Shown here: piece by piece, positions 36,984 to 45,430 of the stretch | How the letters are laid out: every line of letters starts with the position of its first letter | Numbering within the stretch: position 1 is the stretch's first letter | Assembly (NCBI RefSeq): GCF_017313225.1 | Contig: NZ_JAFLNE010000002.1 | Location: 496,001-560,000, forward strand | Length of the DNA: 64,000 nucleotides | From: Allomuricauda sp. CAU 1633 | Lineage (GTDB): Bacteria; Bacteroidota; Bacteroidia; Flavobacteriales; Flavobacteriaceae | Direction of reading: 5' to 3' | Notes under the pieces: generated by a model | What the model was told of the DNA's origin: nothing | Databases searched by the model: none | Seen by the model: only the letters and a program-made list of their open reading frames with translations | Program-made: the position numbers and the translations under genes

Positions 36984-37280
36984 GCAATCCACCAAATCGG
37001 CAATGATATGGAGAATGAGTGCCAAGCCAATGATTCGGGTGGTTTTAAAAAAGGGTAAAATGCAGTACACCAAAATAGCCCAATATGAGTGTAGGGGGTG
37101 AAAACCTATACTACAGCGATTGGGGTCGAATAAAGGGTTGGCCCAAAGATGATCCACATCAATTACAATTCCGGCCAAAAGAATAAGTGCAACCTTGATT
37201 CTGTTTTCCTTAAAAAAGAAAAAAGCAATAAGAATGGGAACCAAAAAATGAATGCCGTAATGTAGGATATGCCTATACAT
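36972..37280 (-). CDS. DUF6122-type small membrane protein
   Basis: A 102-aa membrane protein with three or four helices. It has MYRHILHYGIHFLVPILIAFFF in overlapping parts, IVIDVDHLWANPLFDPNRCSIGFHPLHSYWA and LHIIADLVDCLL. The conserved D, H and FHPLH residues recall metal-dependent membrane hydrolases of the YdjM type, which is only a suggestion. Its start overlaps the WbqC gene end by 8 bp, so they are translated together. The name DUF6122 is from family pattern recall. Confidence 0.82.
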   Translation of the reverse strand: MYRHILHYGIHFLVPILIAFFFFKENRIKVALILLAGIVIDVDHLWANPLFDPNRCSIGFHPLHSYWAILVYCILPFFKTTRIIGLALILHIIADLVDCLLQ

Positions 37281-37836
37281 TTAAAAAGTCTATAGACTGA
37301 TTTTTTAAATAGGAAAGCGTATTGGTGCCTTCGTTGAACAAAAGATCTAAGATACTTAGATTGGGGATAAAGCCATGGCGTTCACCAAAAACTTGGGTGT
37401 AAGGTTCCATTTTTACCGGAAGTTTCTTTTTGGCCTCAACCAAAAACCGAGCATCAAAGGAGTCTTTTGGCTGAAGTTCATAAGATGAAGTTGTATGCTT
37501 GGAAAATTCCAGCCCCAAACAATCGGATATAGCTTGTATGGTTGCAAGGTTGAATTCGTACAAAGATGATTGATCTCCTTCGTACAAAGGTTTTATATCA
37601 TCTTCATAAAATTCAAAAAATGGAGAAGTCCTATAGGCAGTTTCCAAAGTTCGCCAATGTACCTTTTTCCAATCGTAGGTGTTGTCCAGTTCAACATCGG
37701 TATATTTTTGACGCCCTTCATGTCCCCCAACATGTTTTATGGGGATGTTGAGCATATGTTTTCCCTTATCGGTACAGATATAGCAACGATTCCGATAGGT
37801 TTGTTTCTGAAAATTGTCATGGGCTTCCCAAACCAT
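37273..37836 (-). CDS. WbqC-family protein with a lost start codon
   Basis: WbqC-like protein, associated with surface-polysaccharide loci. The first ATG (first base 37836) gives 187 aa, MVWEAHDNFQKQTYRNR onward. But the frame stays open upstream, and the codons to about 37899 read ILIHPTYFPSIATFAVLKQKE, the typical family N-terminus. No ATG, GTG or TTG exists between there and an in-frame TAG at 37939-37941, which is also the stop codon of the upstream four-helix-bundle gene. The native start seems to have been removed by insertion of that unit. Translation may use a rare codon, stop readthrough, or this internal ATG, which would trim about 20 conserved residues. Confidence 0.85.
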   Translation of the reverse strand: MVWEAHDNFQKQTYRNRCYICTDKGKHMLNIPIKHVGGHEGRQKYTDVELDNTYDWKKVHWRTLETAYRTSPFFEFYEDDIKPLYEGDQSSLYEFNLATIQAISDCLGLEFSKHTTSSYELQPKDSFDARFLVEAKKKLPVKMEPYTQVFGERHGFIPNLSILDLLFNEGTNTLSYLKNQSIDFLNV

Positions 37837-37897
37837 TTCTTTTTGCTTCAGTACGGCAAACGTGGCGATACTTGGAAAATAAGTGGGGTGGATTAGT

Positions 37898-38332
37898 ATT
37901 TGTTGATTTGTTGATTTGATAGTTTGAAGTTTGACTCGCTATTTGGTTTGGTGGTTCCGCAAAGCGTTGAGTTTATTTGTTATACTTTCCAATTTCAACC
38001 TCAGCTCTTTGTAGCTTTCCTGAGTTAGTAGCCCAAGTTCAACCGTTAAAATTAATTGATTTAAGATTTCTACCGCAGAACCAAAGGAAATTGTGGTAAA
38101 ACGCGCTTTGTCCTTATTGGTTCTTCGCGTAGATCCTTCAGCAATATTGGAACAGATTGAAACAGCCGCTCTCCTCATTTGTGATGTTAACCCGAATTTT
38201 TCATCATTTGGAAAGGTAGATGTTACATTGTAGATTTCTTTGGTAAAATCTTTGGATTCTTTCCATACTTCAAGTTTTTCAAAAGAATAGGTGTACATAG
38301 GTTAAGTTGTTCAGATAAACAAATAAACAAAT
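37898..38332 (-). mobile_element. Possible small inserted unit with imperfect inverted ends
   Basis: The ends are ATTTGTTGATTTGTTG-ATTTGA (37898-37919) and, on the other strand, ATTTGTTTATTTGTTT-ATCTGA (38311-38332), an inverted repeat of 22 bp with three mismatches. Between them lies only the four-helix-bundle gene. The left end is at the position where conserved WbqC coding starts, and the right end is close to the lepB stop codon (38356-38358). No transposase is encoded, so any movement would be by an outside enzyme. The right flank has more of the same TTAATTTGTT-like repeat (38333-38355). Confidence 0.5.
37939..38298 (-). CDS. Four-helix-bundle protein (S23/IVS-encoded family)
   Basis: A 119-aa helical protein with YSFEKLEVWKESKDFTKEIYNV, FGLTSQMRRAAVSICSNIAEG and KDKARFTTISFGSAVEILNQL. 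These are hallmarks of the four-helix-bundle family first known from intervening sequences in 23S rRNA genes and scattered singly through Bacteroidota genomes. The biochemical role is unknown; the fold forms pentamers that may bind nucleic acid. It lies between lepB and wbqC, framed by imperfect inverted repeats, and its TAG stop is in frame with the WbqC open frame. Confidence 0.92.
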   Translation of the reverse strand: MYTYSFEKLEVWKESKDFTKEIYNVTSTFPNDEKFGLTSQMRRAAVSICSNIAEGSTRRTNKDKARFTTISFGSAVEILNQLILTVELGLLTQESYKELRLKLESITNKLNALRNHQTK

Positions 38333-38355
38333 TCGCGGATGAACAAATTAACGAA

Positions 38356-40104
38356 TTAACCATTTTCTTTTTTCTTTTTGCGTTTTCTAAAGAAGTCAAA
38401 CACAAACCAACCCACGATCAAAGCAACAAAGTACCAACGGTACGATACGGGTTCCCCACTTCCACCTACGGTGGTGAAAACTCTCTCCCAACGTGGTCTC
38501 CAATTGGCAATCCCTTCTGTGAAATTGTCAAAACTCATCCAAAGGAAAACGGGCTTGCCCACAATATGGTCCGCGGGTACGTAGCCCCAGGTTCTACTAT
38601 CTTCTGAGTGATCTCTATTATCGCCCATCATCCAATAATAATCCTGTTTAAAGGTATAGGAAGTGGCTTCTTCTCCATTGATGAAAACCTTTTGTCCAGT
38701 CACCTTTACATCATTGTGCTCATAATCCCGGATGATTTTCTTGTATAGGGGAATTGTTTTGGCGTTGATGTCAACCGTGGCACCGGCTTCTGGAATATAA
38801 ATAGGACCAAAATTATCGTTGTTCCAAGGGTACAGATTGGGTTTTTGTGGGAATATATTCCCACCGTAACTGCCTTTGGGGTCAATGATTTTTACCACAG
38901 AATCAATGGCAGGGTCTTTTCTTAGTGCAGTGACCATTTCATTGGTCATATTGGCATTTCGTTCCCTTCCTGTGATTTCTTTTAAGGATAATCGTACGGC
39001 TCGAATGGTTTCGGGTTGGATTCCTTTACTATCCGTAATGATAACATCAGGAGAGTTTTGGGAAAATACACCATACCCCATGTTTCTTAAAACTTGTATT
39101 TGTGATGTTGTCAAAGGGCTGTTTGAAACATAAGTTCTACTGAACTCATCAATATTTAGGCTTAGAAGAAGTCGTGTTGAAACCCCTTTCTGAGCATAAA
39201 TGTTATACTCATACATGGGTTTGGCACGATCTGATAGCGTTAATTGCTCTCCATTAATGTGAACATAACCATCAATCACCGCAAGGGAATCTCCGGGAGT
39301 ACCCACACAACGTTTTACATAATTTGATTTCTTATCAATGGGCTTTATCACCGCTTTTTGTGCCTTAAAAAACTGATACAGGGTATCGGAAGGAAGACTG
39401 AACACCACAATGTCGTTTTTCTTTACCTTTTCAAAGCCCGGTAAGCGCATATAGGGTAATTGCAATTTGTTGATCCAAGAAGTTTTATGAGTTTCTGGGT
39501 CTACATCCGCCAAATAGGACCTGGTTTTAAAAACGGGAAGTGTATCATGCACCATGGGCGCGGCCAAAGTGGTCATGGGAACACGTGCCCCATAATGGAA
39601 TTTACTCACAAAGAGAAAATCCCCAACCCTTAGGGTACGTTCCAACGAACCTGTGGGAATCACATAGGGTTGAATAAAATAGGTGTGTACAAGCGTGGCT
39701 GCGACTATGGCAAAGACAATAGAACTTACCCATTCCCCCAATCCGGTACGAGGTTTTAGGCTCCGGTCCTCGATATAGGTGACATCCTCAGCATAATTTA
39801 TATAGTAGATATAAAGGCCAAGGGTAAGAATCACCAACCAAGTATCCAAAAGTGTGTTTTTTCCAAAACTTCGGATGGTCTCCACCCATACCACGGGAAT
39901 CATCAATAAATTGATGATGGGAATGAATAGCAATATCACCCACCACCAAGGACGGTTGATGATTTTCATTAAGACAATGCCATTGTAAACTGGAATGGCG
40001 GCCTCCCAAGCCTTACGTCCCGCTTTTATATATAGCTTCCAAGTTCCCAAAAAATGGATGACTTGGATGATCAAGATAAAAATGATCCATTGTGTGCCGT
40101 TCAT
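38356..40104 (-). CDS. lepB: Signal peptidase I, long Bacteroidota form
   Basis: LepB, 582 aa, about twice the usual length, as often in Bacteroidota. It cleaves signal peptides of exported proteins. The N-terminal part has four hydrophobic segments. The catalytic Ser is in PTGSLERTLRVGDFLFVSK (Ser153), and the general-base Lys in NYVKRCVGTPGDSL (Lys264). A large insertion of about 200 residues precedes the C-terminal GDNRDHSEDSRTWGYVP box, and one C-terminal helix (YFVALIVGWFVFDFF) with a KRKKKKE tail ends it. It is the last gene of the ParA-ParB-DUF5683-DapB run, 48 bp after dapB. Confidence 0.96.
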   Translation of the reverse strand: MNGTQWIIFILIIQVIHFLGTWKLYIKAGRKAWEAAIPVYNGIVLMKIINRPWWWVILLFIPIINLLMIPVVWVETIRSFGKNTLLDTWLVILTLGLYIYYINYAEDVTYIEDRSLKPRTGLGEWVSSIVFAIVAATLVHTYFIQPYVIPTGSLERTLRVGDFLFVSKFHYGARVPMTTLAAPMVHDTLPVFKTRSYLADVDPETHKTSWINKLQLPYMRLPGFEKVKKNDIVVFSLPSDTLYQFFKAQKAVIKPIDKKSNYVKRCVGTPGDSLAVIDGYVHINGEQLTLSDRAKPMYEYNIYAQKGVSTRLLLSLNIDEFSRTYVSNSPLTTSQIQVLRNMGYGVFSQNSPDVIITDSKGIQPETIRAVRLSLKEITGRERNANMTNEMVTALRKDPAIDSVVKIIDPKGSYGGNIFPQKPNLYPWNNDNFGPIYIPEAGATVDINAKTIPLYKKIIRDYEHNDVKVTGQKVFINGEEATSYTFKQDYYWMMGDNRDHSEDSRTWGYVPADHIVGKPVFLWMSFDNFTEGIANWRPRWERVFTTVGGSGEPVSYRWYFVALIVGWFVFDFFRKRKKKKENG

Positions 40105-43321: not shown

Positions 43322-45430
43322 TTAATCCATCAAAATATTTAAGATTTCTATAGCAGCATTACTGATTTTGGTTCCTGGCCCAAAAACGGCCACTGCGCCT
43401 TTGTCCAATAAGTGTTTATAATCCTGTTTTGGAATGACGCCACCCACAATGACCATGATGTCTTCCCTGCCTTGCTTTTTTAATTCTTGAACCACCTCGG
43501 GAACCAAGGTTTTATGTCCTCCCGCCAAGGATGAAATTCCTAGAATGTGAACATCGTTTTCTACGGCTTGTTTGGCCACTTCGGAAGGGGTTTGGAACAA
43601 TGGACCGATATCCACATCGAAACCAAGGTCGGCATAGCCTGTAGCGACCACTTTGGCACCACGGTCATGCCCGTCTTGGCCCATTTTGGCCACCATGATG
43701 CGTGGTCTTCTGCCTTCTTGAGCGGCAAATTCATCGGCCATTTTTCGGGCCCTTTCAAAACTTTCGTCGTCTTTGATTTCTTTGGAATACACTCCAGTAA
43801 AGGATTGAATTTTAGCTTTGTAGCGTCCAAAAGCGCTTTCCATGGCATCGCTGATTTCACCCAGGGTAGCACGTGCTTTGGCCGCTTGTACCGCTAAAGC
43901 TAACAAATTTCCACGGTCGGTTTGGTTTTGGGTAGTTTTTTTGGAGGCAATTCGGATGGCATCCAAGGCTTTTTCAACTTCGGATGCATTCCGTGTGGAT
44001 TTAATTTTCTCTAGTCGAGCCATTTGTTGTTGGCGAACTTTTGCATTGTCCACCTCCAAAATTTGAAGCTCATCCTCATTCTCCAATCGATATTTGTTCA
44101 CCCCCACAATCAGATCTTGAGCACTATCAATTCTGGCTTGTTTTTTGGCGGCGGCTTCTTCAATCCGCATTTTGGGAATGCCCTCCTCAATGGCCTTGGT
44201 CATCCCTCCTAATTTTTCAACTTCTTGTATCAATTTCCAAGCCTCTTCTGCGATTTCCTGGGTGAGTTTTTCAACTACGTGGCTTCCGGCCCAAGGGTCA
44301 ACTGTACGAGTGATATGCGTTTCTTGCTGTAAGTAAATTTGGGTATTCCGTGCAATTCGAGCGGAGAAATCTGTAGGCAATGCAATGGCCTCATCCAACG
44401 CATTGGTATGGAGGCTCTGCGTACCGCCAAACGCCGCTGCCATGGCTTCAATAGTAGTTCGGGCCACATTGTTGAAGGGGTCTTGCTCCGTTAAGCTCCA
44501 GCCACTGGTCTGACTATGGGTACGGAGCATGAGCGATTTTTCATTTTTCGGATTGAACTGCTTAACGAGTTTTGCCCAAAGCATCCGACCGGCCCGCATT
44601 TTGGCAATTTCGGTAAAGTGGTTCATTCCAATGCCCCAGAAAAAGGATAGCCGAGGTGCAAATTCATCAATTTTCAGTCCTGCTTTAATTCCGGTTCGGA
44701 TATATTCAATCCCGTCAGCCAAGGTATAGGCCAATTCCATGGCCGCCGGAGCACCTGCTTCGTGCATGTGGTAACCGGATATACTGATACTATTGAATCG
44801 GGGCATATTTTGACTGGTAAACTCAAAAATATCAGCTACGATTTGCATGGAAGGAGTAGGTGGGTAGATGTAGGTGTTTCGCACCATAAACTCCTTTAAA
44901 ATGTCATTTTGAATGGTCCCTGAGAGTTGTTCCATGGATACGCCCTGTTCTTCAGCGGCCACAATGTAAAAAGCCATAATAGGAATCACCGCCCCGTTCA
45001 TGGTCATAGAGACGGACATGTGGTCTAAAGGAATGCCATCGAACAGAATTTTCATATCCTCAACCGAATCAATGGCTACTCCAGCTTTGCCTACATCACC
45101 AACAACACGTTCATTGTCAGAATCATAGCCACGATGCGTAGGAAGGTCAAACGCTACGGAAAGGCCCTTTTGGCCTGCCTCCAAATTTCTTCGGTAGAAG
45201 GCATTGCTTTCCTCGGCCGTGGAAAATCCTGCATATTGTCGGATGGTCCAAGGTCTTCGAACATACATGGTGGAGTAGGGGCCGCGTAGGAAAGGTGGAA
45301 TGCCCGCAGCAAAATCTGAATGAGGAAAGTTATGAGTTATGAGTTTTGAGTTATGAGTACTATCCGACTCTGAACCCTGAACTCTGAACTCTGAACTCAA
45401 CTTCAACTGTTGAAGGTCTTTTCTACTCAT
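43322..45430 (-). CDS. scpA: Methylmalonyl-CoA mutase, large (B12-binding) subunit
   Basis: B12-dependent mutase that interconverts (R)-methylmalonyl-CoA and succinyl-CoA, 702 aa. The N-terminal barrel begins [27 protein letters not shown] in parts. The cobalamin domain (about 575-700) has the DxHxxG motif in [21 protein letters not shown] and SSLAGGH. The first 35 residues are unusual: [23 protein letters not shown] is encoded by tandem repeats, while conserved sequence resumes at [12 protein letters not shown]. It overlaps the small-subunit gene by 8 bp. The carboxylase that makes its substrate is encoded nearby. Confidence 0.96.
45329..45407. repeat. Tandem repeats inside scpA 5' end
   Basis: Two short tandem arrays lie within the coding sequence: copies of GTTATGAG/GTTTTGAG (45329-45358) and of the 7-mer TGAACTC with variants (45371-45399), as read on the plus strand. 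They are translated as residues 12-34 of the mutase. They have the look of intergenic simple repeats common in Flavobacteriia. Confidence 0.7.

Follow-up and report, generated by a model that had tools for sequence, protein, structure and literature searches.

The closest described relatives of the locus reported here are the intervening sequences (IVSs) of 23S rRNA genes that carry an S23p open reading frame (ORF). As described in the passages of PMC4990558 that deal with them, these are units of ~430 nt in which the ORF lies between terminal inverted repeats; one such IVS has tandem heptamers (GACAGAT) beside the S23p start codon. The same passages attribute no known function to S23p proteins and characterize the biological role of IVSs as very little known. 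Three other systems invite comparison. The Avd/bAvd proteins of diversity-generating retroelements are related four-helix bundles (4HBs). The P6b stem of the cyanobacterial tRNA-Leu(UAA) intron is a stem-loop built on short repeat motifs (AATCTTC), and its 7-nt repeat class has been replaced several times between lineages, according to the sections of PMC4476775 that concern this stem. MITEs and insertion sequences have inverted ends, several copies per genome, and both empty and filled sites.

The window (the whole stretch of 64,000 nucleotides that was analysed, from contig NZ_JAFLNE010000002.1 of Allomuricauda sp. CAU 1633) contains a unit of comparable size in which a gene of the same protein family as S23p is enclosed by inverted repeats. 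Because it is located outside rRNA, this unit, though similar in layout, is not a 23S IVS: it stands between protein genes, both of its arms are arrays of short words that are private to the locus, the words of its lineage are octameric (period 8, not 7), and the start of the downstream gene is affected. The heptamers upstream of S23p, as that one IVS is depicted in PMC4990558, tie the rRNA and protein-gene settings together. The 4HB protein of the window scores under the curated cut-offs for Avd/bAvd (29.7 bits with PF22296, cut-off 40; 26.3 bits with NF033474, cut-off 80), and the immediate neighbours of the unit are lepB and wbqC, with no reverse transcriptase beside it. The P6b stem is one site inside an intron and its loop has no protein gene, making it an analogy only. 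Unlike those of MITEs and insertion sequences, the ends of window-type units vary by locus and flank a 4HB gene of their own; there is no fixed terminal repeat common to the copies, and a unit's own arms match best. Among the literature titles and abstract openings searched, we found no description of word arms around 4HB genes in Bacteroidota.

The 4HB gene, its arms and wbqC

The 4HB gene lies between lepB and wbqC (Table 1). Its score with PF05635 compares with a cut-off of 33.8 bits, and XCC0516 (2gsc) is the only solved chain that matches the protein (E 2.5e-23). An Rfam search of window positions 37000-39000 gave no match.

Table 1. Positions of features at the lepB-wbqC junction, numbered along the window
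Feature	Position	Strand	Evidence
lepB (signal peptidase I), upstream of the unit	38356..40104	-	PF10502 133.7 bits; TIGR02227 117.6 bits (cut-off 47)
Left (5') arm, array of degenerate octamers with the sense words TTTGTTTA/TTTGTTAA	38311..38360	-	TRF; inverted match to right arm
4HB gene, S23/23S_rRNA_IVP, 119 aa	37939..38298	-	PF05635 130.6 bits; TIGR02436 120.6 bits
Stop codon (TAG) of the 4HB gene, in frame with wbqC in the window	37939..37941	-	
Right (3') arm, octamer array, sense ATCAAATCAACAAATCAACAAAT	37898..37920	-	TRF 37898-37918, period 8, 100%
AUC codon (-10), alternative wbqC start	37918..37920	-	
AUA codon (-3) abutting the arm, predicted wbqC start (favoured)	37897..37899	-	
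wbqC, predicted 208 aa from AUA	37273..37899	-	PF08889

The original prediction held that imperfect inverted repeats of 22 bp, with three mismatches, bound the 4HB gene. Direct comparison confirms this: positions 37898-37919 differ from the reverse complement of 38311-38332 at 3 of 22 positions. Both repeats are embedded in octamer arrays, and the 22 bp are therefore the best-matching part of longer, degenerate arms rather than the exact ends of an element. TRF finds ATTTGTTG x2.6 at 37898-37918 on one side; on the other, it finds ATAAACAA x2.2 at 38315-38332 and AACAAATT x5.4 at 38318-38360, both with a period of 8. The far end of the left arm overlaps the lepB stop, and the right arm directly abuts codon Ile3 of wbqC. 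The unit's own left and right arms score 19 together; paired with the right arms of units from other locus groups, the left arm always scores lower (rank 0.0).

Counted from its first ATG (37836), WbqC has 187 residues. It had also been claimed that wbqC coding extends past this codon without a start codon and runs to a TAG that is the stop of the 4HB gene, and the claim is upheld by a reading of the frame and by Pfam. The frame upstream of 37836 is open up to the TAG, and no ATG, GTG or TTG is present in that open stretch. The PF08889 match begins at profile position 2 when the upstream codons are included and at position 24 when they are not; the missing N-terminus is thus genuine WbqC sequence.

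Armed copies in the genome, the genus and the phylum

PF05635 matches seven genes in this genome. All seven copies lie between co-directional genes, and all seven have inverted ends, each with a short word of its own (by eye). The proposal that other copies would have inverted-repeat ends is supported, with a correction: the ends are there in 7/7, but they are copy-specific word arrays with no fixed terminal repeat. The family is present in 69 of 71 genomes of the genus; across the phylum, 232 of the 296 genomes sampled have it.

For the genus, 133 HMM hits yielded 116 distinct units after duplicates, low scores and hits too near the end of a stretch were dropped, and the flanking genes define 14 loci among these units. 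The left 140 nt of a unit were compared with the reverse complement of the right 140 nt, and common 7-mers were counted. Summed over the 14 loci, inverted sharing between a unit's own arms was 77.4 versus 31.7 expected (p = 5e-5); for sharing in the direct orientation, p was 0.12. Per unit, the inverted sharing averaged 5.4, compared with 2.1 in 64 control ORFs, and own sharing was the highest in 8/14 loci and not the highest in 6/14. Inverted sharing was 9.9 versus 2.3 in 30 loci of the class (p = 5e-5), 6.2 versus 2.1 in 26 further loci from a search of the phylum (p = 5e-5), and 10.5 versus 3.0 in 78 of the 80 loci of a named-record scan (two loci were unused), where the values are means only, without permutation. 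Direct-orientation sharing was also raised in the class (4.9 versus 2.3) and phylum (4.3 versus 1.5) sets.

The copies are mostly co-oriented with both neighbours, as judged by the longest flanking ORF: this was the case for 113 of 116 units in the genus, 24 of the 28 scored in the class, 29 of 30 in the family and 63 of the 70 scored in the named records. The 4HB proteins form clades in 8 of the 11 multi-member locus groups (two with low support); the exceptions are groups 0 (merged loci), 7 and 9. Within a locus, a unit's own arms paired no better than arms swapped between species (p 0.26-0.60 in groups 1-9; only the merged group 0 was significant). Because the arms of other species pair equally well, arm co-evolution inside a locus is not supported, and we rejected it as an account of the arms.

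By eye, a motif of the ATATCGAACCCCCGATAT or ATCAACCTCGAAA type stands ~20-40 nt before the 4HB ATG in genus locus groups 1, 2 and 4. This type of motif is common to different loci (e.g. L058, L062, L118).

Word length and word follow the protein

Arms match themselves in excess at lags of 7, 14 and 21 in the class, family, genus and phylum sets; no lag excess of this type was found in 32 control ORFs. For proteins related to that of the window, the lags are 8 and 16 instead. Period 7 is also found in a small set of eight loci outside Bacteroidota, whose record titles name Lentisphaera, Cloacimonadota, Saccharibacteria, Acidobacteria (two), Terriglobia, Verrucomicrobiia and Omnitrophota; at the gathering score, an Rfam family was matched in 0/8 of them.

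The heritability of the period was assessed in 179 strongly periodic units out of 249. The nearest protein at a different locus had the same period in 150 of 177 cases, compared with a mean of 98 and a maximum of 121 in 500 shuffles. Across different loci, the 6-mer overlap of the arms rises from ~0.07 to 0.12 as protein identity increases, with pairs that are not independent; over all pairs, the rank correlation between arm overlap and protein identity is weak (0.08). As the word length and the word follow the protein across unrelated loci, we infer that gene and arms are inherited, and move, together: the 4HB gene and its arms are likely one mobile unit. The earlier suggestion that such units could spread the 4HB family fits this passage of word length and word with the protein between loci.

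Arms can also occur without the gene, as solo heptamer arrays at window positions 45328-45398 demonstrate. There, AGTTATG x4.4 and ACTCTGA x4.6 form an inverted pair, 8 bp apart, with no 4HB gene; the pair is in frame with a methylmalonyl-CoA mutase ORF (43322-45430, minus strand; PF01642), close to its N-terminus. Thirty genus loci were fetched for this ORF, and the N-terminus was parsed in 11. The solo array is present in three (G000, G081 and G030; period-7 self-match 0.50-0.55) and absent in eight (0.19-0.31).

A right arm that is apparently translated as the N-terminus of the downstream gene occurs in locus groups 2 and 9 (L055, L121 and others). The downstream genes (named by eye) are an RluA-type synthase with a GTG that overlaps the 4HB stop and a MetH-like gene, and their proteins would thereby gain word-built N-terminal tails. 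A missing start for the RluA-type gene after locus group 2 was considered and dismissed in view of that overlapping GTG (by eye, e.g. L055).

Possible roles of the arms

One conceivable role of the arms is at the level of mRNA: they would pair in the polycistronic transcript like those of a 23S IVS, and a cut by RNase III would uncouple lepB, the 4HB gene and wbqC. The layout is that of the 23S IVS, a stem with the S23p ORF in its loop, at least as outlined in the IVS passages of PMC4990558, and most units are co-oriented with both neighbours. In 30 class units, moreover, duplexes of a unit's own arms have a mean of -34.5 kcal/mol versus -20.3 kcal/mol for swapped arms, and the own arm was the best of its row in 14 of the 30. 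However, the antisense duplex is equally good (-34.8 kcal/mol), and G.U mismatches are outnumbered by A.C mismatches (58 versus 76 in 29 class units; 157 versus 243 in 109 genus units). The window unit itself folds like its shuffles (z -1.13), and the predicted structure leaves its right arm unpaired. Selection for RNA pairing would be expected to raise G.U above A.C; as neither the class nor the genus units show such an excess, we rejected selection on the stem at the RNA level. Given these negative pairing tests, a role at the DNA level or the binding of a 4HB oligomer is at least as likely as an mRNA stem, which we regard as unlikely. PMC4990558 describes a relative as a homopentamer. The arms may serve a 4HB oligomer as a binding site or form a hairpin, in DNA or in RNA.

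The lepB-wbqC junction across the genus

We found lepB in 71/71 genomes of the genus and read the junction in 68 of them (G014, G086 and G089 were left out). Sixty junctions are empty, seven are filled (G000, G027, G035, G073, G088, G090 and G093), and one is a scar. In the scar (G080; L151), the 4HB gene and the left arm have been lost; the right arm still abuts wbqC, for which no ATG, GTG or TTG start is present. Between the lepB stop and the sixth codon from HP, the empty junctions span ~27-157 nt. Each has a canonical wbqC start: a TTG at -5 before HP in 55 and an ATG at -6 in five. The relatives thus supply the empty site, with a canonical start codon, that had been sought for this junction.

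The eight filled or scar alleles all lack the wbqC start of the empty sites, and six of them have no ATG, GTG or TTG in the open stretch. That of G073 has an ATG at -3, and also a TTG at -1 and a GTG at -17; that of G093 has a TTG at -2. The original prediction, which had the insertion removing the start of wbqC, fits these eight alleles but does not apply to every insertion. A wbqC-like gene directly follows a 4HB gene in 32 named loci, 26 of them outside Allomuricauda, and a canonical wbqC start is present in 26/26 of the latter. Because the 4HB gene is followed by a wbqC with a normal start in other genera, start loss is a feature of the Allomuricauda alleles.

Two observations on individual records were made along this junction. 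At L150 (G077), lepB is 89% but wbqC only 72% identical to that of the window, compared with 87% for the wbqC of G027 and G080; this mosaic junction suggests recombination near the site. The record L282 (CALPPA020000035.1), titled as a Klebsiella pneumoniae MAG, has a Flavobacteriaceae-type 4HB-wbqC locus on its contig, and its organism label therefore looks wrong.

Gain or loss of the unit

The filled sites are scattered on the tree, near random: on a tree of lepB and wbqC, the filled state takes 6 Fitch changes for 8/68 tips, and shuffled tips give a mean of 7.7 and a minimum of 5. In all windows of the flanks, G035 is closest to its empty sister G008, and G093 to its empty sisters G007, G063 and G069, the resemblance reaching as far as the junction. 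G088 and G090 have flanks nearest to one another; next comes, at the wbqC start, the empty G011 (0.93-0.94), and the lepB windows give a mixed picture. In this flank comparison, lepB was not placed in G027 and the lepB windows were misplaced for G073. The match of filled flanks to those of empty sisters favours repeated replacement of the spacer. By eye, filled and empty junctions differ by a replacement that includes TTG AAA, with no duplication; neither a target-site duplication nor an adjacent transposase was seen at the unit.

These patterns must be weighed against long residence, in which the 4HB gene occupied the lepB-wbqC junction ancestrally in the family and was passed on by vertical descent, with loss from most lineages of Allomuricauda. 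The TTG of the empty sites would then be a deletion product (a left-arm TTTG joined to AAAATA) or would have spread by homologous recombination. The 4HB-wbqC association is old in the family, and the 26 loci of other genera with a 4HB gene before wbqC (lepB upstream unchecked in each) allow an old filled state with many losses. The 4HB proteins of the lepB-wbqC locus form a clade. Between filled lineages, the 4HB gene and wbqC are equally diverged (nucleotide identity of 0.71-0.77 and 0.69-0.77, respectively), and this similarity gives no sign of very recent exchange. Further, there is one deletion scar, in G080, and the sequence of some empty spacers, TTAATTTGTTCTTTG, resembles the left arm (by eye). 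However, that sole scar retains the right arm and has not restored the TTG, and the TTG of the empty sites stands at one fixed codon in 55/60. Filled sites are nested among empty sisters whose flanks match theirs, and vertical descent would thus require repeated, precise loss. We judge long residence to be possible, if somewhat improbable, and give repeated replacement of the spacer a tentative preference.

The start of wbqC in the filled alleles

AUA, AUC and AUU are able to start translation weakly in bacteria. In the start-less alleles, the codons from HP to the slot of the internal ATG or GTG have an identity of 0.87 at positions 1 and 2 and of 0.52 at position 3, and the HPxYFPxxxxF codons lie upstream of that slot, within the Pfam domain. 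Since the HP-side codons evolve as coding sequence, the true start should be upstream of the internal slot. A start on a rare codon is, by this reading of the alleles, likely for wbqC in the present one. Of the routes to WbqC that the original prediction had entertained, initiation at a rare codon is the one that is favoured.

Synthesis from the internal start at 37836, or as a fusion through readthrough of the TAG, fares worse. The internal codon is usable both as the ATG found here and as the GTG found in 6/7 compared alleles, but starting there would discard the conserved, coding-like N-terminus upstream, which is part of the Pfam domain. Readthrough draws on the 4HB stop sharing the frame of wbqC at five filled sites out of seven (G000, G035, G073, G088 and G090). 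At G027 and G093 it does not share that frame, and G080 has no 4HB gene; readthrough is thus not a shared mechanism. Together, we deem these two routes very improbable. We also discarded the idea that an ATG on the upstream side of the left arm supplies the start through a splicing-like repair, that ATG being absent in G088 and G035 (by eye).

Two rare codons come into consideration. The AUA at 37897-37899 sits in the slot that a canonical wbqC start occupies in other genera. An arm similar to the right arm precedes that start: it is much the same sequence (AAATCAACGAATAACCGA and variants) in several of the 26 other-genus loci, and some of the loci have almost no arm. In the filled and scar alleles, this slot (codon -3, Ile3) reads ATA in G000, G027, G080, G088, G090 and G093, ATT in G035 and ATG in G073.

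The AUC at 37918-37920 would instead place the start in the right arm and endow WbqC with an arm-encoded N-terminal extension. Codon -10 is ATC in 8/8 filled or scar alleles, its third base included, whereas the codon preceding it is unconserved, and synonymous changes (TCA/TCC/TCT and ACA/ACG) are found downstream of the ATC. This codon had been our first choice. It was demoted because nearly the same arm stretch (e.g. AAATCAACGAATAACCGA) is a leader before the ATG in other genera; with the arm recurring as a leader, the arm word accounts for the conservation of the codons from AUC to AUA. In addition, G073 keeps the ATC despite its ATG at -3. We consider a start at the AUC unlikely. The AUA is favoured over it on account of the canonical start at its slot and the arm as leader in other genera, and we tentatively predict, at close to an even chance, that translation of wbqC begins there.

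Proposed explanation and significance

Taken as a whole, we find it probable that an armed, mobile 4HB unit, related to the rRNA IVS, displaced the start of wbqC, with AUA as the predicted replacement. The unit would comprise the 4HB gene and its own inverted arms of a tandem short word, moving together. The filled allele would have replaced the TTG AAA of the empty junction and so joined the arm to Ile3. Initiation of wbqC would then use the AUA or AUU (AUG in one species) at the start slot of other genera, perhaps aided by a ribosome that has just finished on the upstream gene.

A wider proposal, rather unlikely in its entirety, is that S23-type 4HB genes are a class of mobile elements at co-directional gene junctions in Bacteroidota and beyond. 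Each would have a private inverted word of 7 or 8 bases that is co-inherited with, and read by, the 4HB oligomer, by which lineages would find their own ends and re-enter their own site; at lepB-wbqC, re-entry would have erased the start, leaving WbqC to be made from the AUA.

The lepB-wbqC junction amounts to a natural experiment on start codons: 60 alleles start canonically, six have no ATG, GTG or TTG, one has an ATG, and one has a TTG within what is left of the N-terminus. For the family, copies that lie mostly between co-directional genes, with arms that match themselves and follow the protein, bear on the purpose of S23p and the IVS.
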